From Polytrichum commune (lineage: Eukaryota; Streptophyta; Polytrichopsida; Polytrichales; Polytrichaceae), in NCBI GenBank assembly GCA_950295325.1, contig OX485806.1, positions 43,581,169 through 43,645,168 on the forward strand: 64,000 bases of DNA, in the 5' to 3' direction. Positions within the stretch are counted from its first letter, which is position 1, and every line of letters begins with the position of its first letter. Below, piece by piece: positions 5,880 to 54,444 of this stretch. The notes under the pieces were generated by a model that did not search any database, had not been told where the DNA came from, and worked only from the letters and a program-made list of their open reading frames with translations. The position numbers were made by a program, and so were the translations under genes.

Positions 5880-6580
5880 TGTGAGCCCAAAAGGGTGCCC
5901 ACATTTAGTCTTAGACCCTTGAAACGTTAGTTGATGCACTTTGAAGTAGCATGTTACTTCACAAAAATATAAAAAGAGTGAAATGTTAGTCTTAGAAGTA
6001 CCATGTTGTAAGAGGCTAGGATGTGAGTTGTTATTGTGTTTTTACCTTCGGAAGGATTTGAGTGAATGAGGATAGGTAAGGAGAACTTGGATTGAGTAGT
6101 TAGTGAGTAGGCTAGTACAAATGGATGGAGACAACCAAAGTGACTCAAGAGGCAAGTGCATTCGAATTGGCATGAATGGAGGATCACATGGAGCGCACAA
6201 GTGGACCACCTCATCATAGCCACTTAATGGGGAAGGCCCAAGGAAGAATGCAAGGTGGAGGATAAGCAAATTCTCAAAGCACCAATCAAATCACGAGTTA
6301 AGCATCGTGGTTTGAATTAAGTGGTGAGCGACGATTTGGGAAAGTAAGGGGAGAAAGTTATGGCGGCGGAAAGCGAAGGAGGCTAAGTTTGGGTTGAAGC
6401 ATCCCAAGTTTGGTAAAGTGTGGTAGGTAGAAAGCCAAGGCTAGTTAAATGTTCGAATTAGGATCCTTGTTGATCATTTGAGGGAGGAAGGCTTAGAAGA
6501 TAGGATTGGCGCCTACTAAGTAGGAGGAAATCTCAAGGGCTTATCGTGAGCCTTGAGGGTGCTCACCCCCTCAAGCTTAC

Positions 6581-6587
6581 TATATAA
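6581..6587 (+). promoter_or_regulatory. TATA box of the LTR promoter
   Basis: TATATAA, preceded by CTCAAGCTTAC and followed by a pyrimidine-rich stretch, lies about 700 bp into the LTR; the same word is in the 3' LTR near 15492. It is a plausible Pol II TATA box for the element transcript. The start site itself is not determined. Confidence 0.55.
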
Positions 6588-7080
6588 TCCCTCATTCTTC
6601 CCTCTCTTTCCTTTGTGCTCCAAGGCACCCCACGAGTTATAAGTGTGGGTGTGGGAAGCCATATTGGAGCACATGTGTGTGCTTAGTTTTTAGTTTGAGA
6701 GCCAAGGCTTGTTAGCCTTGAAGAGGGCTTGACCTCTTGGTAGAATTAGTGTTGACGTGAAGGATTTTAAAGTTAATTCATGATTCCAATTTGTGGTACT
6801 TAAAGTTCATGTTTTGAATACACGTGGTTGCAAGTTCCATGTTTAAGAGTTGAGCACTTGATGTTGTGATGAGTGCAAAAATATACTTGTGTGGATTAGT
6901 TAGTCTTAGTGAAGTTAGGAAATTCTCTCTCCCCCTCTCCTCTCTAGGATTTTAGGATTTTAGGATTAGAGAAGAATTGTGTGATTAGAAAGGGGTTGTT
7001 AGTAGAATTAGGGAAATTAGGTAGGAAGATTAGTTAAGGGCTTGAATAATTAGTGAGGTAGTTGGGGATTACAACTACAA

Positions 7081-7360
7081 AGTTGTGGGTTCATGAAGGA
7101 GCTGGGTTTATGAAGGAGCTGGGTTTGTTTAGTTAGAAAGTAAAGAGCTGGGTTTATGAAGGACCTGGGTTTGTTTATTTAGAAGCTAAGGAGCTGGGTT
7201 TATGAAGGAGCTGGGTTTATGAAGGAGCTGGGTTTGTTTAGTTAGAAGCTAAGGAGCTGGGTTCATGAAGGAGCTGGGTTTATGAAGGAGCTGGGTTTGT
7301 TTAGTTAGAAGCTAAGAAGCTGGGTTTATGAAGGAGCTGGGTTTATGAAGGAGCTAGTTA
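7081..7360 (+). repeat. Nested tandem repeat inside the 5' LTR
   Basis: The 17-18-bp word GAAGGAGCTGGGTTTAT recurs about ten times, grouped into units of about 60-70 bp that end TTTGTTTAGTTAGAAGCTAA. The 3' LTR has only about two to three copies of the short word, so the array length differs between the two LTRs of one element. Confidence 0.85.
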
Positions 7361-7498
7361 AATCCAAGACCACTTGAAGGGTGAACCTTGCACTATGGAC
7401 TCATCCAAGTCCAAATCCAATACCGCGGAGGAATGTGAGCCCAAACCCACTACTCGGACTACGGACGCTTAAGGGTGGGGGGTTTGGCCTCACATAAT

Positions 7499-7516
7499 TG
7501 GTGCGTCCGCCGGGAG
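7499..7516 (+). other. Primer-binding site copy 1 (tRNA-Gly)
   Basis: TGGTGCGTCCGCCGGGAG begins four bases after the LTR end and is complementary to the last 18 nt of tRNA-Gly(UCC) with CCA. It continues without a break into the complement of the rest of the tRNA. Confidence 0.9.
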
Positions 7517-7573
7517 TCGAACCCGGGTCTATTGCTTGGAAGGCAATTATCCTAACCGTTGGACTACAGACGC
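7499..7573 (-). tRNA. Full-length tRNA-Gly(UCC) copy, retro-inserted at the primer-binding site
   Basis: Read on the minus strand, this 75-nt segment is a complete tRNA including the CCA end. The acceptor stem is GCGTCTG with CGGACGC (one T-G wobble). The anticodon arm is ATTGC-CTTCCAA-GCAAT, giving anticodon UCC (Gly). The T arm is CCGGG-TTCGACT-CCCGG, with a B-box-like GGTTCGACTCC. Its 3' 18 nt are the complement of the element's primer-binding site TGGTGCGTCCGCCGGGAG at 7499-7516, directly after the 5' LTR. The encoded CCA and the position show it was copied from a mature tRNA primer and is not an ordinary host tRNA gene. The internal A and B boxes look intact, so antisense Pol III transcription is possible but unproven. 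Confidence 0.92.
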
Positions 7574-7621
7574 TTAAGGGTGGGGGGTTTGGCCTCACAT
7601 AATTGGTGCGTCCGCCGGGAG
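7574..7621 (+). repeat. Second copy of the LTR tail plus primer-binding site
   Basis: Directly after the tRNA copy, the last 26 bases of the LTR (TTAAGGGTGG...CCTCACA, 7574-7599) are repeated, then TAAT, then a second primer-binding site (7604-7621) that leads into the normal leader. The order is therefore LTR, site 1, tRNA, LTR tail, site 2, leader. Confidence 0.95.
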
Positions 7622-8489
7622 CGAAGCGGAAGGTAGTTACAAGACTTGGAGGCGACTAGGAAAAATTGGAGACACAAACTTGAGAGAAGGGAAGGAGCAC
7701 CCGAAACTCGGTAAGTATTCTCTCTTTGGGTTACATTTGAATTCATTGTATTTCAACTATTCCTTGGAATGAATTGCATTGTCAATTACGCAAATTCATT
7801 TTTGAGGAAGGAGCGCGGCGAAGGTGCGTCCTCAACCTTTTTGGGGATTTGCTAAGAACTTAAAAGGAACCTATAACCGAGTAGCTCATTAAAACATTAG
7901 AGGGTAAATTCACCTTAGGACATTGAACTTTGACACTCACCTCGGGGTGAGTCTCAAAGTTTTGGGAGTTGTCATTTCATGCTGTAGATTAAATTAATAT
8001 TTCACAAAGTTTATGGTGTTGTTACATTGAGTCACGATTGAGGGGAGTGCTAACTCACAGGGGGATGCGATTGCTCAAGGTATGTTTATTTCTTCAAAGT
8101 GAACTCATTAACTAATTAAGGAATGCCTTTTGTACTCGTGATTGTTGTTATCCGTTGTAGAGGGTAATTCCCGAATTGTGGATGGTGTGAGAAGTTGAAG
8201 GGTGAAGCCTCGACTTTTAACATAATCTACTCGGAAGGTCACCCCCTCACAATCGGTATTGTGGTGAGTGTTAATTTGCGGGAAGGTGCGGAGGTGATGC
8301 TCCGACTTAACCAAAAAATTAACATGAACATGCCTATCCCCTATTGGGATTCTTTCACCTAAGTGGGCTTGCAGGTTCTTTTCCTCACCTCCTAAAAAAA
8401 TTATAACCACACCAAGACAAGTGAAAATATTAAGAGGGGAATTGCTAGGATTATGTGTGGTCAAGTGAGGGTCGATCGATTCTTATGGA
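7622..8489 (+). other. Leader (5' untranslated region) of the gypsy element
   Basis: About 870 bp lie between the second primer-binding site and the first gag codon. No coding signal is recognised. Packaging or dimer signals are expected here in such elements, but I cannot point to one. Confidence 0.6.
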
Positions 8490-11400
8490 ATGCAAGGTAG
8501 GACTCGCTCACAAAAACCAAGTTTGATAGTAGGACTAGAGAAATCTACTCGAAAGAGGCGGTCCTCTAAAATCAGTGATAGATTAGAACAAGATAATGTT
8601 AGAATAGAGAGTTGTTTGAACGTCGAACCTAGGACTAGGTCAATTCTAGACACCTTAGAACTTGGAGCTCAACTTGAAGAGGAGATCACTCCCTCCAAAT
8701 TGAGTGGTGAAACTTCTTCGGAAAATTACACACTTAGAGAAGAATTCCCGGTAGAAGTTGATAGGGGATTGTTGAATAGTTCACCGGTCACCATGGCCGA
8801 GGAACGGGGGATGGATCCACCACCCATACCCCCAATTCCGCCCATACCTCCTATACCTCCAATAGACCCATTGGTTAGGCCAAGAGGCCTACCAATTGTG
8901 GTTCCACAAAATTTAGCGGCGATGGATATGCCATCTCATCTCCCTAAATTTTATGGGACCAAGGATGAAGACCCCTCTCGGCACATGGAACGGTATATCG
9001 AACGGTTGGCTAGCTTCCTCATAACCGACCCGGGTTATTAGTTAGTGTGGTTTCCTACCACTCTAGAGGGGGAAGCCTATGAATGGTATCGGGATCATGC
9101 CGAGGGACATTTTAGGAGATGGGAACAATTACAAAGGGAGTTTCTTAACGAATTTAGGCCGGAAGTGGGTCAAAGTACCGCATTAAGGGCATTGTCGTCA
9201 TTGAAGCAAGGAAGGGAGGAAGAAATTTCGGCTTACATTAGGAGGTTTGATTTAGTGTGCACTAGATTTGTGGGTACCATGCTCAACGACGACACGCTAA
9301 AGCAATTTTTCATTCAAGGGTTTTTTAAGTCCGGAACTATTAGGGGTGTTCTAGAAAGGAATCCCTTGACCTTGGCGGATGCCAAGCGTGCGGCTAGAGA
9401 TATTGAAAACTTGGATAAAGATCACGAAAGGCTATGGAGAAGGGAGGATGAATTGATCCCACAATTCATCCCCATACGCCCTAGGGTGGTAGCGGTAGAA
9501 CCCGCTAAGTATGAGAACCAAATTCCATATGCCATTGTGGACACCGGTCCCCGACCTTTAGCGGTTAGGGAACCGGCACCTCTTTTGGCACTACCGGCCC
9601 CTAGAACGGATCCACACTTGGAGGAGGTTGAGAGAAGACTAGGTGCTAGCCAACTAGGATTCCAAGAGGCTATGATAAAACAAATGCAAAGCCTCACGGA
9701 TCAAATGTCATTAATGATCCGAAGTCAACAACCGGGGCCTCCACCCCCGGTTGAGTCGGGTAGGCATTCTTCCGGATTATGGTGTGTCCAATGTGGCCAA
9801 CCGGGCCACACGCGTCAATTTTGTAGAAGTGGACAAAACCGTGACCAAAGAGGAAACGGTAACCCACCTCAACAAAATCAACGAGGTCAAGCGCCACCTC
9901 ACTATGGAAATGGAAGCAATAGAGGACCACAACCTAGAGGGCAAGGTGGCCAAAATTTAGAGAAGAAGGAATTTCATCCCTTTTGTGGAAGGTGGCACGC
10001 TCAAGGACAATGTTGGTCCGAAGGTCAAGAGTTTAATTGTAGCAATTGTGGAGGAAGTCATCCCTCGGATACGTGTCGACAACCGGACAAAATAATTAAT
10101 GTCCCTTACCCGGTGGCTAATCCACAACAACAAGCAAGGGATAATATGCGAGGTGCTAGGCCACAAGGAGTACCGGCCAATGAACTTAGGCCACCTAACT
10201 TATACTATGACCATAGTAATGCTAGGCAAACTTTTCATCCACCGGCGGGCTTGCAAACTACAACCGGTTACATTCCAATACAAAATAGACAAGGAGTTCC
10301 ACCTAATGGTAGTAACGGGAGACAAGCGCCTCCAACGGATCCGGGACCATCTAACTCCCAAGATGTTAGGTTCATGGATGGAGTGTTGGAGGCCACATGT
10401 GATGACATGCTTCCTCTCCCAACGAGAATTGGAGAGGAGCAAAGTCAATGGCCTCCTCACACCAATGCTATTACATATGAGTTAGTGAAGGGTAAGGGTG
10501 TGGTTGAAGAAGCACCTGCACTAGCGGTAACTACTAGGGCTAGGAGAGGGGATGCCCCGTTGGAGGTAGGAATGGGAGAGCAAGGAAATTACTCTTCGGA
10601 TGAAGAGATTAATCTCTCCGAGTTGGATAGGGTAGCTAGAAGAGCTACTAAGGATGTGGAGAGGGAAAATATAATTTTACAAGATAGGGAGAGGACTAAT
10701 GCGGTACATGACTTGGATAATAGCGATGTGGGTGAATGGGAAGGACCGGGGGTTCCCGTAGACGAATTCGACGTAGTGGGTAATTCTAAGGTGGAAAGAT
10801 CTACCGGGTACGACTTGTGGGCGGACCTTAGTACACTCAAGGCGGATATTACTTTCGGCCAACTATTGGAAATTTCACCCACGGCAAGGAAAACATTAAA
10901 GGAGGGAATGCCGGTACACAAGAGGATGAGGAAGGTGAAAGCTAAAATAGCCGCTAGGATCCAATCACAAGGTGGAAGAGACGTGAAAGCTATAGAAATA
11001 GAAGTTGTTATAGTAGATAAGGTGGTTCCTAATGTGCTAGTCGACGGAGGGAGTAGTCTAAATATACTACCGGAGGATACTATGAAAAAATTGGGACTTG
11101 GACTCACGGGGCCTTCACCTTTGGTCATAAATATGGCAAATCAAAGTTCGACTACGCCTTTGGGGATGATCAAGGATTGTAGAATGACTACGGGAGGTGA
11201 GGAGTACTTGGTCACCTTCCATGTCATTAAAATGCACTCCAACAAGGACACCTTCCCCATTTTGCTAGGTAGGCCTTGGTTGCGGATGGCGAATGCTATG
11301 GTCAATTGGGGTGGACCTAAACCATCCATCACTTATGGTCCGGAGGGTAATAGGGTCATAGTGTCCATTGGTTCATTAGAAGGATGGATGAAGAAGGAGA

Positions 11401-14400
11401 TGTATTTGCCATTGGAGAAGGAAATTGATGACTTAAACGAGAATGAGATTGGCAAGGCATTGGTGGGAGTCGTCCATCCCGAAGGTCAAAGGGTTGTTAT
11501 AGATTCGGGCTCGGGAAGTCTAGGTCCTAATTTTTACAATTATGGGGATAATGGGGATTATGCCCAATGGCTAAGGGAGTACCCCGAGTCCGAGGTTGAT
11601 GTAATGGTTACATTTCACCAAGTAGGCTTAGGGAGTGAATTTCCTAGTGTTAGTTTAGGAGAGGGCTCATTGTTGGAGCCATGTGAGGTGCTCACCGAGG
11701 AAGAGTGGATTAGCGGTGGGTTAACACCTTGGGTAGATGACGTGGAAGAGGGTGAGGTTAGTTTAATTCATGTAGATGGGACTCAAGAGGAGGATGTGAT
11801 TATTGAGTCATCGAAATTGGAGGAGCCTTTACATTTCAAGACCACGTCTACGGGGATAGTTGTAGGTCAAGATGTGAAAGATTACCCCAATGTGCCTTCC
11901 GATTGGTATCGGAACAAAGAGGAGCAAGCACATGTGTCGGAAGCGGATTGGCGGTACGTGGATGTGAAATTAAAGAATGGAAAAACCCGACAAATGAAGA
12001 TGGGCTCCAAATTGGGGGAGAAAGAGGTTAGGGAGTATAGCAATTTGGTGGATGAGTTTAGTGATACTTTTGCATGGTCCTACGATGAGCTTAAGGGAAT
12101 TCCTAGGGAAATGGTAGAGCACCGGATTCCTTTAATTCCGGGGGCGAGGCCAATTAGACAAAAGGAGAGGAGGATGAATCCTCAATTGCAATTGTTGGTG
12201 AAAGCGGAATTGGAAAGGTTATTGAAGGCCGGGTTTATCAAGCCGGTGGAAATCACGGATTGGGTTTCTCCTATGGTCTTAGTAAAGAAAAAAAATGGGA
12301 AATTAAGGGTTTGTGTCGACTATAGGAAATTGAATTCGTGCACACAAAAGGATCACTTCCCCTTACCTTTTATCACCTTGTTGCTTGAGGAGGTTGGAGG
12401 TCATTCGCGATATACCTTTATGGATGGGTATGCGGGTTATAATCAAATTTCCATAGCCTTCCAAGATATCCATAAAACGGCTTTTACTACACCTTGGGGT
12501 ACTTTTGTGTGGGTAGTGATGCCATTTGGGTTATGTAATGCCCCGGCTACTTTCCAACGATTAGTAATGTATATCTTCACCGACTTGTTGTTCAAATCCA
12601 TGACCGTCTTTGTGGACGATTTTAGCACACAAAGTAATGTGGATGATCACCTACATTGTGTTAGGGAGGCATTGGTTAGGTGTAGGAAGATGAGGTTAGC
12701 ATTGAACCCGGATAAGACATTTTTGGGAGTGAATAAGGGAGTGTTGTTGGGTTATGTTGTTAGTGAGAAAGGTAGAGAACCCGATCCGGATAAGATTGCG
12801 GCCATAAGCGACTTGGCAACTCCAACCAATTCCAAGGGGATCTCTAAGTTATTAGGACATGTGGGATGGTACCGGGAACTTATTCCTAATTTTTCAAAGA
12901 TAGCGGTGCCCATTACACATTTGCTCAAAAAGGATGTCAAATTCGAGTGGACGGATGCTTGTCAAAAAGCCTTTGAGGAATTGCGGGATAGGTTGAGCAC
13001 CTATCCGGTGTTGATACCACCCAATTGGGGTAAACCTTTTCACGTCTATTGTGATGCTAGTGATGTGGCAATAGGGAGTGCGCTTTGTCAAGCAACGGGA
13101 GAAAAAGAGAAGGATCAACCTATAGCTTATGCGAGTAAGCAATTGACCCCCGCCGAAAGAAACTACTCTACAACGGAGAGGGAGTGCCTAGCCATGGTGT
13201 TTTCCGTTAAAAAGTTTAGACATTACCTCATGTGCAACCCGGTTGTATTTTTTGTTGACCACATGGCTATCAAGTATCTAATTAACAAGGCGGAGTTAAG
13301 TGGTAGGTTAGCTAGGTGGGTTTTGTTATTAGAAGAATTCGACTACACGGTGGAATATAAACCGGGTCGTATGCATTTACAAGCGGACCACTTGTCTAGG
13401 TTGTCGGAGGAGATAGGAAAAAATCCGGTAAATGATATGTTAGTAGATGATAGCCTCTTTGTGGTCACTTCTACACCGGAGTGGTATGCGGGCATAGTGG
13501 AATTTCTAACAACCCACAAGTTGCCCAAAGAGTGGACAAAAGAAGAGAGAAGGAAGGTGAGGGTAAATAGTAGGCAATTTGTTGTAGTGGGCCATAGGTT
13601 GTTTAGAAGGGGGTCCGATGGTATTTTACGACGATGCGTGTCAAAAACGGAGGTTGAAGCGATTTTAATCGCTTGCCACGATAGCGCTTGCGGCGGTCAC
13701 TTCTCGGGTCAACTCACCGGGCAAAAAATACTTAGAGCGGGCTACTTTTGGCCTACACTATTTAAGGACGCCCATGACTATGTAAGGAAATGCGACGCTT
13801 GCCAACGGTATGCCCGAGACGACCTTAGAATGGAGATGCCTTTACATGTATCATTACCCTTAATTCCTTTCGAAAAATGGGGCATCGACTATGTGGGTGA
13901 GGTCCATCCCCAATCTTCAAAAGGAATGAAATATATTGTGGTGGCAACCGAGTACCTCACCAAGTGGGCGGAAGCCAAAGCGGTGAAGACCGACACGGCG
14001 GAACACGCGGCAACATTTATGTACGAAAACATAATTTCGCGGTTCGGGGTGCCGAAGATCCTAGTAAGCGATAGGGGTACTCACTTTTTGAATGACTTGA
14101 TTCGAGAGATGACAGAGAAATTTAAAATTGATCACCGGAAGACTACTCCCTACCACCCACAAACCAATGGACAAACGGAAAGGGTTAACGGAATTTTGGT
14201 GAGTATACTACGCAAGACGGTTATAGACTCGAAGCGGGATTGGGATACGAAACTAACGGCGGCACTTTGGGCATACCGTACAACCTATAAGGTAACTACG
14301 CGTGCTACACCATTTTCCTTAGTCTATGGTCTTGAAGCGACACTACCAATCGAATATGAAGTCGAGTCACTTAGGGTGGCCGTGAGTACGAGACTTACCG

Positions 14401-14729
14401 AAAGTCAATCCTTACGAAATCGACTAACCGATTTGGAAGCACTTGACGAAGGGAGGAGAATGGCGGCTCAACATATTGAGGCAATCCAAAGAAGGAGAAA
14501 GATTACTTTCGACAAACGACATAAGAGAAGGGCCCTAACACCGGGAATGATGGTCATGATTCAAGACGCACGAAAGCTTGAATTTCCGGCGAAATTCAAT
14601 GCGGTATGGTTAGGACCTTACCTTGTCTATGAGGTCTTTCCTAATAATTCAATTCAATTGGAAACGTTGAATGGTGAGCTCTTTCCTACCCGTACATCGG
14701 GAAGTAGATGTAAGGAGTACCGAGCTTGA
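8490..14729 (+). CDS. gag-pol: gag-pol region of the young gypsy element (fossil copy)
   Basis: One reading direction carries all Ty3/gypsy parts. Gag has a Pro-rich N-terminal segment (repeated PPIPPIPP), a core with the retrotransposon-gag signature around WYRDHAEGHFRRWEQ, and two CCHC-type knuckles (CVQCGQPGHTRQFC and CSNCGGSHPSDTC). The protease region has VDGGSSLNIL. Reverse transcriptase has VDYRKLNS and the catalytic block VFVDDF. RNase H has VYCDASDVAIGSAL. Integrase has an HHCC-type region ending CDACQR and a catalytic core with GIDYVGE and SDRGTHF. The order protease-RT-RNase H-integrase defines Ty3/gypsy. The region looks nearly whole, with about one interruption. Start at 8490 is the first ATG after the leader that opens gag. 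Confidence 0.9.
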
Positions 14730-14790
14730 CTAGGCAACTTACCCTTGGAGCAAGAGATGTTTGGATTCATCCCCCGATGGTCGCCAATTA

Positions 14791-16448
14791 TGTGAGCCCA
14801 AAAGGGTGCCCACATTTAGTCTTAGACCCTTGAAACGTTAGTTGATGCACTTTGAAGTAGCATGTTACTTCACAAAAATATAAAAAGAGTGAAATGTTAG
14901 TCTTAGAAGTACCATGTTGTAAGAGGCTAGGATGTGAGTTGTTATTGTGTTTTTACCTTCGGAAGGATTTGAGTGAATGAGGATAGGTAAGGAGAACTTG
15001 GATTGAGTAGTTAGTGAGTAGGCTAGTACAAATGGATGGAGACAACCAAAGTGACTCAAGAGGCAAGTGCATTCGAATTGGCATGAATGGAGGATCACAT
15101 GGAGCGCACAAGTGGACCACCTCATCATGGCCACTTAATGGGGGAGGCCCAAGGAAGAATGCAAGGTGGAGGATAAGCAAATTCTCAAAGCACCAATCAA
15201 ATCACGAGTTAAGCATCGTGGTTTGAATTAAGTGGTGAGCGACGATTTGGGAAAGTAAGGGGAGAAAGTTATGGCGGCGGAAAGCGAAGGAGGCTAAGTT
15301 TGGGTTGAAGCATCCCAAGTTTGGTAAAGTGTGGTAGGTAGAAAGCCAAGGCTAGTTAAATGTTCGAATTAGGATCCTTGTTGATCATTTGAGGGAGGAA
15401 GGCTTAGAAGATAGGATTGGCGCCTACTAAGTAGGAGGAAATCTCAAGGGCTTATCGTGAGCCTTGAGGGTGCTCACCCCCTCAAGCTTACTATATAATC
15501 CCTCATTCTTCCCTCACTCATCCTCTCTTTCCTTTGTGCTCCAAGGCACCCCACGAGTTATAAGTGTGGGTGTGGGAAGCCATATTGGAGCACATGTGTG
15601 TGCTTAGTTTTTAGTTTGAGAGCCAAGGCTTGTTAGCCTTGAAGAGGGCTTGACCTCTTGGTAGAATTAGTGTTGACGTGAAGGATTTTAAAGTTAATTC
15701 ATGATTCCAATTTGTGGTACTTAAAGTTCATGTTTTGAATACACGTGGTTGCAAGTTCCATGTTTAAGAGTTGAGCACTTGATGTTGTGATGAGTGCAAA
15801 AATATACTTGTGTGGATTAGTTAGTCTTAGTGAAGTTAGGAAATTCTCTCTCCCCCTCTCCTCTCTAGGATTTTAGGATTTTAGGATTAGAGAAGAATTG
15901 TGTGATTAGAAAGGGGTTGTTAGTAGAATTAGGGAAATTAGGTAGGAAGATTAGTTAAGGGCTTGAATAATTAGTGAGGTAGTTGGGGATTACAACTACA
16001 AAGTTGTGGGTTCATGAAGGAGCTGGGTTTATAAAGGAGCTAGGTTTATGTAATTAGAAAGTAAAGAGATGGGTTCATGAAGGAGCTTAGTAGATAGCCT
16101 ACCTAATTAGCTCATAGACAAGTAGTTAGTTACATTATGCTAGTTAGTGTTATGTGTGGCTTTCACAAGTAAATGTATTTGAGATTGACTATAGAGAATA
16201 GTGTTTTTTTTAACACTTGCATCCTCTCTTTAAAAATAAACCACGTGCACAACTTAATGGAGAATGTGGAGCACTCTCGCGATGGCAAGACAAAGGAAGC
16301 AAAGACCAAAGTTAAATCCAAGACCACTTGAAGGGTGAACCTTGCACTATGGACTCATCCAAGTCCAAATCCAATACCGCGGAGGAATGTGAGCCCAAAC
16401 CCACTACTCGGACTACGGACGCTTAAGGGTGGGGGGTTTGGCCTCACA
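14791..16448 (+). repeat. 3' LTR of the young gypsy element
   Basis: A 1658-bp LTR, nearly identical to the 5' LTR over its first ~1.2 kb and its last ~130 bp. Between these it has a short version of the GAAGGAGCTGGG repeat followed by about 230 bp (from about AGTAGATAGCC to AAGACCAAAG) that the 5' LTR lacks. Confidence 0.93.
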
Positions 16449-52567: not shown

Positions 52568-54444
52568 TGTGAGGCCAAACCCACCACCCTTAAGCGTCCT
52601 AGTCCGGGTGGTGGTTTTGAGAATCACATTTACTTCATAACACCGTAATGTGAATTGCCATGTAGCTCCCATGTCCAAGTACCCACTTCATCTTAACTCA
52701 ACTTGCTTTATTATTGTGAGCCTCTTGGCTCGTGGTAGAGTTCGATTTCTCAAGGGTCCAACCCGCGGCCTTGGCCACGCATGCCCTTAGAGAAATTCCC
52801 CTTACACCCCTAGTTTTGGCTTCCTTTGTTTTGCCATCACCGGAGTCCTTAACATTACCCATCAACTCGTGTACTTAATTCAGTAAAGAGAGAAGTAACA
52901 AGCGTTCAAAAACGCTATTATCTCTTCCCAATGGTGGGTACACTTGTTCACACAAAACCACACGCACGATGCCACTCTAATGAGCTTACTTACTCGTCTA
53001 TCTAATGCCTTACTTAAGCTATCTTCTAAATGCCCTTTAGAGCTTAACACTTCATTTGTTGGGCAACAACCCGATCACCCTTTAAATGGCTCCTCCTATT
53101 AACCAAGTTAATCCTAGTTTAGTTGATGCAGCTCCCACTAGCCCTCGGCTGTTGGGCAATCTCGGTGAACAGTAGAGCTGGTTAGCCCTCAGCTGCTGGG
53201 CAGTCTCGGTGAACAGTAGAGCTGGTTAGCCCTCGGCTGCTGGGCAATCTCCGTGAACAGTAGAGCTGGTTAGCCCTCAACTGCTGGGCAGTCTCGGTGA
53301 ACAGTATAGCTGGTTAGCCCTCGGCTGCTGGGCAATCTCCGTGAACAGTAGAGCTGGTTAGCCCTCGGCTGCTAGGCAGTCTCAGTGAACAGTGGAGCTT
53401 GGTTAGCCCTCGGCTGCTGGGCAGTCTTCGTGAACAATAGAGTTGGTTAGCCCCCGGCTGTTGGGTAGTCTCCGTGAATAGTAGAGTTGGTTAGCCCTCG
53501 GCTGCTGGGCAGTCTCCGTGAACAATAGAGTTGGTTAGCCCCCGGCTGCTAGGCAGTATCCATGAACAGTGGAGGTTGGTTAGCCCTCGGCTGCTGGGCA
53601 GTCTCCGTGAACAGTAGAGCTGGTTAGCCCCCGGCTGCTGGGCAGTCTCAGTGAATAGTGGAGCTTGGTTAGCCCTCGGCTGCTGGGCAGTCTCCGTGAA
53701 CAGTAGAGTTGGTTAGCCCCCGGCTGCTAAGCCTTGGACCAGCCCCTTCCACTAACTATTTAGGCCCTAAGTACTCAACTCATCCCAAGATTACAAGGCC
53801 AAATAGGCTAAGCTAAGTGTAAACTAAATTAACTACAAGCATCTAACATCTAAAAACTAATGATTAATGAACTAGTGCCCACTTGACTAACTTGCCTTTG
53901 GGCTAAATCCTAAACTACATGCACTCTCTAACCAAGCCTTGGCACACACTTCTACCTAAGTTCCTACACACCTCCACACTCAAGAGGGTGGAGGAGTTAA
54001 CAACCTTGAAGAGAGAAAAGAGAGAGGAAAAATGAAAGAGGGAAGCCTTAAGTAGCAAGGAGAGAGAGAGGGCATGAGGTAAGGATAGGGTGAGAGGATT
54101 AGAGCCCCCAATCACAACCTCTTAACCTTCCCCTTCTAAGTAGGGACTAATCCCCATCCACAAAGCCTATCCCTTCCTAAACCAACAAGGTGGATCCTAA
54201 TGTGGGCATTTAACCCGCGGAGCTCACCTTGCCTCACCTTACTCCATACTCACCTAGTCAAGGCATCCCCTTATTGAACTTAAACCTTGAAACAATCACA
54301 CAACACCACCTAATGTCTAAACTTAAATCCAAACCACACTTCACTCTTTTTATATGTTTGTGAATAATCATAACACGTCAAAGTCAAACCAAAATTGGTT
54401 TCGAAGAGTTAATCACCACATGTGGGCACCATTTTGGGCTCACA
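52568..54444 (-). mobile_element. Solo LTR of a gypsy family related to the 5.9-kb element
   Basis: The 1877-bp segment, read on the minus strand, starts TGTGAGCCCAAAATGGTGCC and ends GGGTTTGGCCTCACA. It is flanked by a perfect 5-bp target duplication GGTTT (52563-52567 and 54445-54449), so it is a complete solo LTR left by LTR-LTR recombination. It shares with the young element the start, an inner word ATATAAAAAGAGTGAA near the start, and the end block GGACTAGGACGCTTAAGG. The rest differs, so it is a sister family. It inserted into copy A of the local tandem repeat. Confidence 0.95.
53137..53740. repeat. 44-45-bp minisatellite, about 13.5 copies, inside the solo LTR
   Basis: The unit TTAGCCCTCGGCTGCTGGGC followed by AGTCTCCGTGAACAGTAGAG and a CTGG end recurs about 13.5 times, with 0-5 differences per copy. 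Copies 6, 10 and 12 have one extra base. Confidence 0.95.

Follow-up and report, generated by a model that had tools for sequence, protein, structure and literature searches.

The window (the whole stretch of 64,000 nucleotides of Polytrichum commune DNA analysed here) comes from an assembly of 407.8 Mb in 64 contigs. It contains a Ty3/gypsy-type LTR retrotransposon, as its TG...CA LTRs, the order of its coding domains and the primer-binding site (PBS) beside its 5' LTR establish. At the border between the 5' LTR and the leader of this element, we found a complete tRNA-Gly(UCC) in antisense orientation, flanked by two copies of the PBS. The features discussed below are these:

5880..7494, plus strand: 5' LTR (TGTGAG...CTCACA), array-type variant, from its repeat with the 3' LTR; limits backed by a related solo LTR
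7434..7494, plus strand: hairpin at the end of U5, spanning 61 nt and with 17 nt in its loop (predicted fold, -29.8 kcal/mol with 9 flanking nt)
7456..7468, plus strand: U5 13-mer, part of the hairpin loop and a complement of tRNA-Gly nucleotides 1-13 (13/13 with the C6-G67 type described below)
7495..7498, plus strand: TAAT spacer 1, the same in most siblings read
7499..7516, plus strand: primer-binding site 1, which pairs with the 18 tRNA nucleotides 3' of A58
7517..7573, plus strand: remaining 57 nt of the tRNA complement, A58 through nucleotide 1 (ARAGORN, Rfam, comparison with tRNA genes)
7499..7573, minus strand: complete antisense tRNA-Gly(UCC) with CCA, 75 nt (ARAGORN; Rfam, 70.8 bits)
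7574..7599, plus strand: second copy of the last 26 LTR bases (sequence repeat)
7600..7603, plus strand: TAAT spacer 2 (sequence repeat)
7604..7621, plus strand: primer-binding site 2, joined to the normal leader (CGAAGCGG, which adjoins the sole PBS in the siblings read)
8469..9041, plus strand: open frame of 190 codons that ends in one stop; the main frame follows it in the same phase
9042..14729, plus strand: gag-protease-RT-RNase H-integrase frame, 1895 codons (Pfam)
14791..16448, plus strand: 3' LTR, full-type variant, without the insert (repeat with the 5' LTR)
52568..54444, minus strand: solo LTR, diverged, sharing the hairpin tail (GGACTAGGACGC loop) and flanked by the target-site duplication AAACC (repeat, 5-bp duplication, fold)

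Pfam domains in the 1895-codon frame follow the Ty3/gypsy order of gag, protease, RT, RNase H and integrase, with the protease match (23.9 bits) slightly below its cut-off of 24.3. The 190-codon frame at 8469-9041, which a single in-frame stop separates from the gag-pol frame at 9042-14729, has no Pfam match. When a piece of the RT was compared with proteins, the named organism with the highest identity among the best 120 matches listed was Marchantia polymorpha (88% over 56% of the query), which by itself points to a liverwort or another bryophyte as the probable host. The collections viral_contigs and genome_contigs yielded no relatives of this piece. The PBS pattern matched 2 contigs in viral_contigs, in neither of which ARAGORN detected a tRNA, and the U5-tail pattern matched 3. 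By eye, there is no obvious polypurine tract at 14740-14790, just before the 3' LTR; this interval carries CCAATTATGTGAG, an inverted repeat of CTCACATAATTGG at the border of the 5' LTR and the PBS.

The element has no target-site duplication (its flanks are AGAGG and GGGGT); in the excerpted text of PMC6317226, the duplication is 5 bp in 93.4% of plant elements. Its two LTRs also belong to different subtypes. Markers for these subtypes placed 19 of 27 siblings in the full type and 7 in the array type, and one in neither. A tandem array lies within the 5' LTR of the main element and likewise within the diverged solo LTR (53139-53732). We considered whether the array differences between the two LTRs could be errors of the same plus strand, and rejected this, as both subtypes occur among the 27 siblings and a chimaera is the simpler explanation. 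The presence of two LTR subtypes together with the missing target-site duplication indicates that a DNA-level rearrangement probably occurred here. The insert-bearing copy is thus probably a recombinant of two elements, in which case the insert would trace back to the element that supplied its 5' half.

The insert can be read directly from the repeats that surround it. Positions 7469-7516 and 7574-7621 are identical over 48 nt, and on the downstream side the two units part immediately (TCGAACCC after the first and CGAAGCGG after the second). On the upstream side, the adjoining 13 nt (7456-7468 and 7561-7573) differ by one base. The net insertion is 105 bp, and the whole structure spans 7456-7621. 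Between the two units, the tRNA complement consists of the 18-nt PBS and the other 57 nt, and it ends at tRNA nucleotide 1. ARAGORN called tRNA-Gly(TCC) at 7499-7573 on the minus strand, and the Rfam covariance model RF00005 matched there with 70.8 bits (E 1.8e-13), its sole match at the gathering threshold in the window. The first-pass annotation, made from the sequence alone, had described the order LTR, PBS, rest of the tRNA, 26-base LTR tail, PBS and leader, a whole tRNA-Gly(UCC) reaching its very 5' end, and an exact duplication of LTR tail plus PBS. All three descriptions agree with these results; the limits that it gave (7485-7621) are too narrow. Just downstream, leader positions 7622-7625 (CGAA) equal the tRNA complement minus position 58, possibly by chance and possibly through an old skip over a modified A58. 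We take A58 in the primer tRNA to follow conventional tRNA numbering.

The same annotation had also noted an antisense tRNA with A and B boxes and an encoded CCA. These are present, the boxes because the inserted tRNA is whole. The 100 nt displayed behind the antisense tRNA, on its own strand, contain no stretch of four T, and so transcription by pol III is unsupported.

To place the insert among the tRNA genes of the genome, we used the 75-nt tRNA as a query. All 25 candidates were scored: besides the window there were 19 full-length and 5 partial matches, and only the window reached nucleotide 75. Twelve loci were returned, one of them the window itself, and the 11 tRNA genes read at the others fall into three types, which we name by their bases at 6 and 67 in standard numbering (sequence positions 6 and 66): six are C6-G67, four are U6-A67 and one is U6-G67. 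None of the 11 encodes CCA. The insert has U6 and G67, and matches the U6-G67 gene at 72/72 positions and the C6 type at 71/72. The U5 13-mer, GGACTACGGACGC, is the exact complement of the first 13 nucleotides of the C6 type, and the 3' end of the C6-G67 type fits the PBS as well. The earlier report of a 13-base match with one mismatch therefore holds for the insert against U5, and the mismatch vanishes (13/13) when U5 is compared with the C6-G67 tRNA. We set aside the view of this base as a plain mismatch once the C6 and U6 gene types had appeared; given these types, either the genes truly differ at this base and the incoming strand retained its own version, or a G at a CpG mutated to A afterwards. 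PBS 1 has the complement of G67, which speaks against direct read-through of a U6-A67 primer and leaves the one U6-G67 gene, or a C6-G67 primer followed by a CpG transition, as candidates. In four loci (L077, L081, L082 and L083), tRNA-Gly(UCC) genes are closely followed by tRNA-Asn on the same strand, and L083 has three such pairs in a row.

We next asked if the insert occurs elsewhere in the genome. A pattern for its junction had 995 matches within 3 mismatches, of which one, the window, was exact (backwards-pattern control, 0 and 1). The four matches that have just one mismatch (L047-L050) are ends of LTRs in which one U5 base has changed, with other sequence behind them. We fetched 30 of the 995, and the 29 besides the window are all plain LTR tails of the element's family, which suggests that most of the 995 are probably LTR tails too. 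LTR-PBS junctions numbered 433 within 3 mismatches, two of them in the window (backwards-pattern control, 0 and 0). From the approximately 431 others, we read 41 distinct siblings, namely 39 other scored matches (40 of 1479 candidates were scored) together with L064 and L073. Every one of the 41 has a single PBS followed by the leader, and none has the insert. The PBS is canonical in 38, a single-base variant in one (L034) and the A67 version in two. The search for further copies of the insert that the first-pass annotation had proposed thus returned the junction of the window as the only exact one.

Several other observations concern the family at large. The PBS of L064 and L073 fits the A67 tRNA-Gly type, which could reflect either a primer switch or CpG decay. 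Two pairs of LTR-PBS junctions lie 9,419 bp apart on the same strand (G000:C1:73670047/73679466 and G000:C2:4797818/4807237), a spacing that suggests tandem elements sharing an LTR. Finally, L101 has a relative LTR near 1536 on the minus strand, and the leader behind it has a PBS that appears to be mostly deleted (TGGGAG remains).

The U5 13-mer lies in the loop of a predicted hairpin at the LTR terminus. A 70-nt piece that includes 9 flanking nt folds at -29.8 kcal/mol (z -2.8; 4 of 200 shuffles as good), and a 55-nt piece alone gives z -1.6 (12 of 200 as good). The same form is predicted for diverged tails, among them the solo LTR (z -3.3 for 70 nt), L065 (z -2.5) and L074 (z -5.3), and further tails of this form are found in L091, L097 and L099. 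We collected 14 distinct tails in the same orientation and aligned seven, one per diverged kind. In all seven, the loop keeps GGACTA and GACGC, while the stem varies, with C-G, U-A or A-U at pair 16-48 and A-U or C-G at pair 17-47. Among the seven unaligned tails, the loop core is kept in four and has one change in three (L089, L094 and the second tail in L099). A shuffle control attained the covariation score in 51 of 500 trials with a four-tail alignment and in 12 of 500 with seven tails. For the seven tails, shuffles equalled the double changes in 12 of 500 trials when counted as cells (4), and in 169 of 500 when counted as pairs (2).

The match of the loop to the tRNA was assessed in two ways. 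From base composition, and post hoc, a match to the complement of the tRNA 5' end with at most one mismatch is expected 4e-4 times per LTR, and the exact 13-mer for the C6 type 8e-6 times. In hybridisation predictions with tRNA nucleotides 1-25, the U5 loop was the best site in the LTR, at -26.2 kcal/mol, and the next separate site followed at -16.3; none of 30 mononucleotide-shuffled LTRs attained -26.2 with the same nucleotides, the best reaching -20.7. With nucleotides 1-57, the U5 site was again first (-27.6), with sites in the LTR array close to it (-25.0). In six of the seven aligned tails, the tRNA match is short by one base (a 12-nt version), and the relative LTR in L097 is followed by a 15-nt match to a tRNA-Gly PBS. 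These relatives have, as the element does at 13/13, a conserved sequence outside the PBS that is complementary to the same tRNA. A relative with a different primer, in which the loop might have changed along with it, was not found. Altogether, the microhomology at the insert junction is probably no accident: it is part of a conserved hairpin loop and was probably there before the insertion event.

How did the insert arise? The best-supported account, which the first-pass annotation had already offered, is read-through of the primer followed by a microhomology-mediated transfer back into the LTR tail: the copied tRNA includes its CCA and ends at nucleotide 1, and 41 of 41 siblings lack the insert. 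We put the probability that a single aberrant reverse-transcription event made the insert at roughly 80%. In such an event, plus-strand strong-stop DNA would first copy U3-R-U5-TAAT and continue into the tRNA-Gly(UCC) primer, which would not yet have left the minus strand. Rather than halting after 18 nt at A58, synthesis would run on to tRNA nucleotide 1. Because the new 3' end would carry the sequence of the U5 hairpin loop, it could anneal to a minus-strand copy of U5, on the same template or on a second one, and be extended across the 26-base LTR end, TAAT and the PBS. The leader would then be joined by the ordinary PBS transfer, unless the minus strand had already run on into U5; the event would accordingly have involved one transfer, with a minus strand extended past the PBS, or two. 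That RT was the maker, how many transfers took place, and that A58 lacked its modification or was bypassed are parts of this account that we infer.

The antisense tRNA is in phase with U5-TAAT-PBS and continuous with it, past A58 to nucleotide 1, which points to plus-strand synthesis on the primer tRNA. Counting against such an event is the U6-G67 form of the insert, for which one of the 11 genes read is an exact match; a C6 primer would need a later G-to-A change at a CpG. Since both junctions of the insert lie within sequence shared with tRNA genes (about 15 and 13 nt), repair synthesis through a tRNA gene would give the same product. Here, a broken element end would pair with a tRNA-Gly gene at the PBS, copy it to the 5' end and return to U5 of a sister or neighbouring copy. 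Possible donors exist (19 full-length tRNA-Gly(UCC) matches besides the window, one of them 72/72), and the insert-bearing copy is chimaeric and has no target-site duplication. This route needs two switches, of about 15 and 13 nt, between unlinked loci, whereas in the particle the primer, U5 and PBS are already together. No tRNA-gene flank remains at the insert, although homologous switches would leave none either. We consider such a DNA-level template switch unlikely. An assembly or sequencing artefact is very improbable: the assembly is contiguous, the exact junction is found nowhere else in it, and the edges of the insert fall at biologically meaningful points. Least probable of all is that tandem PBS copies and an antisense tRNA are a selected architecture that serves the element. 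Both PBS copies are intact, but the insert is absent from all 41 siblings, its exact junction occurs once in the genome, and no other of the 25 tRNA matches extends to nucleotide 75.

If a reverse-transcription event made the insert, why was an acceptor available in U5? We propose a second contact with the primer, in which the U5 loop binds tRNA nucleotides 1-13; this proposal has moderate support, and would explain why the acceptor existed. As the 3' strand of the tRNA annealed to the PBS, nucleotides 1-13 would be freed and could pair with the U5 loop. A broader version, to which we give slightly less than even odds, is that the whole clade uses a two-part primer site, in which the 3' 18 nt of tRNA-Gly are bound by the PBS and nucleotides 1-13 by the U5 loop, 30 nt upstream. 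Because such a loop copies the complement of the tRNA 5' end, a plus strand that had read through the primer would meet a ready acceptor in U5, and the insert in the window would be the product of a predictable error. Only a little less credible is the alternative that the U5 13-mer is no primer contact, and is either a relic of an older tRNA copy or kept for some other purpose, such as recognition by integrase or in packaging. Shared descent of related tails could account for the conservation of the loop, the hairpin stem carries the LTR terminus, and most relatives are short by one base of the 13-mer match. Against this alternative, the 13-mer complements the exact 5' end of the tRNA type that the PBS also fits, and the loop core is invariant in the seven aligned tails while stem columns vary.

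Parts of the proposed event have counterparts in known systems, which we compared on the basis of excerpts of the papers cited. In HIV-1, m1A58 sets the stop of plus-strand strong-stop synthesis, and on unmodified tRNA synthesis proceeds to the tRNA 5' end, giving a product called P1 (PMC13191261). P1 resembles what we propose here, in that RT reads the primer tRNA beyond A58 and reaches its 5' end. As described in that excerpt, however, P1 is a cDNA that is not counted among active templates (PMC13191261), whereas the copy in the window was apparently completed, transferred and inherited in a plant genome.

Ty1 and Ty3 of yeast are likewise LTR retrotransposons, and have a bipartite PBS (PMC5371799, PMC4974528, PMC7472051). 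In the excerpts of these papers, T and D arms supply the extra contacts and the Ty1 primer has an unpaired 5' end, whereas the candidate contact here is nucleotides 1-13. Primer sequence is not passed on in Ty3, and Ty1 and Ty3 are described as thereby unlike retroviruses (PMC5371799, PMC4974528, PMC7472051). In the window, by contrast, the tRNA was copied, which suggests a more retrovirus-like step in this lineage, at least once. The U5 stem-loop of HIV also provides a primer contact outside the PBS. In the excerpts, HIV makes its contacts with the anticodon region and an avian virus pairs U5 with the T loop, but none of the contacts described involves the 5' acceptor strand.

The Helenus and Cassandra TRIMs, as the excerpted text of PMC10886601 presents them, also carry the sequence of a small RNA in an LTR element. 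Their tRNA-like (Helenus) and 5S-like (Cassandra) sequences lie inside the LTRs of short, non-autonomous families, for which SINE insertion has been proposed (PMC10886601). The insert in the window instead lies outside the LTR, is antisense, derives from the element's own primer and exists in one copy. We rejected identity with a Helenus TRIM, as the insert is outside the LTR, the 3' LTR lacks it and the element is coding. Helenus is nevertheless the nearest tRNA-bearing LTR group in the literature searched, differing in the place and proposed origin of its tRNA sequence (PMC10886601). Among the literature listed, which was available as excerpts, there is no report of an LTR element with its complete primer tRNA enclosed by two PBS copies, or of a U5 loop pairing with tRNA nucleotides 1-13.

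If our reading is correct, the insert would provide evidence, at the level of sequence, for primer copying by a plant Ty3/gypsy element in the course of plus-strand synthesis, unlike yeast Ty1 and Ty3 as portrayed in the excerpts above. It would also be an inherited record of A58 bypass, preserved at one exact junction in a genome with 433 LTR-PBS junctions. A conserved U5 loop that matches the tRNA 5' end makes primer selection in plant elements testable with simple mutants. Were this copy transcribed and primed from its inner PBS, the whole antisense tRNA would join the LTR, and LTRs could then acquire tRNA sequence through primer read-through, with no SINE involved.
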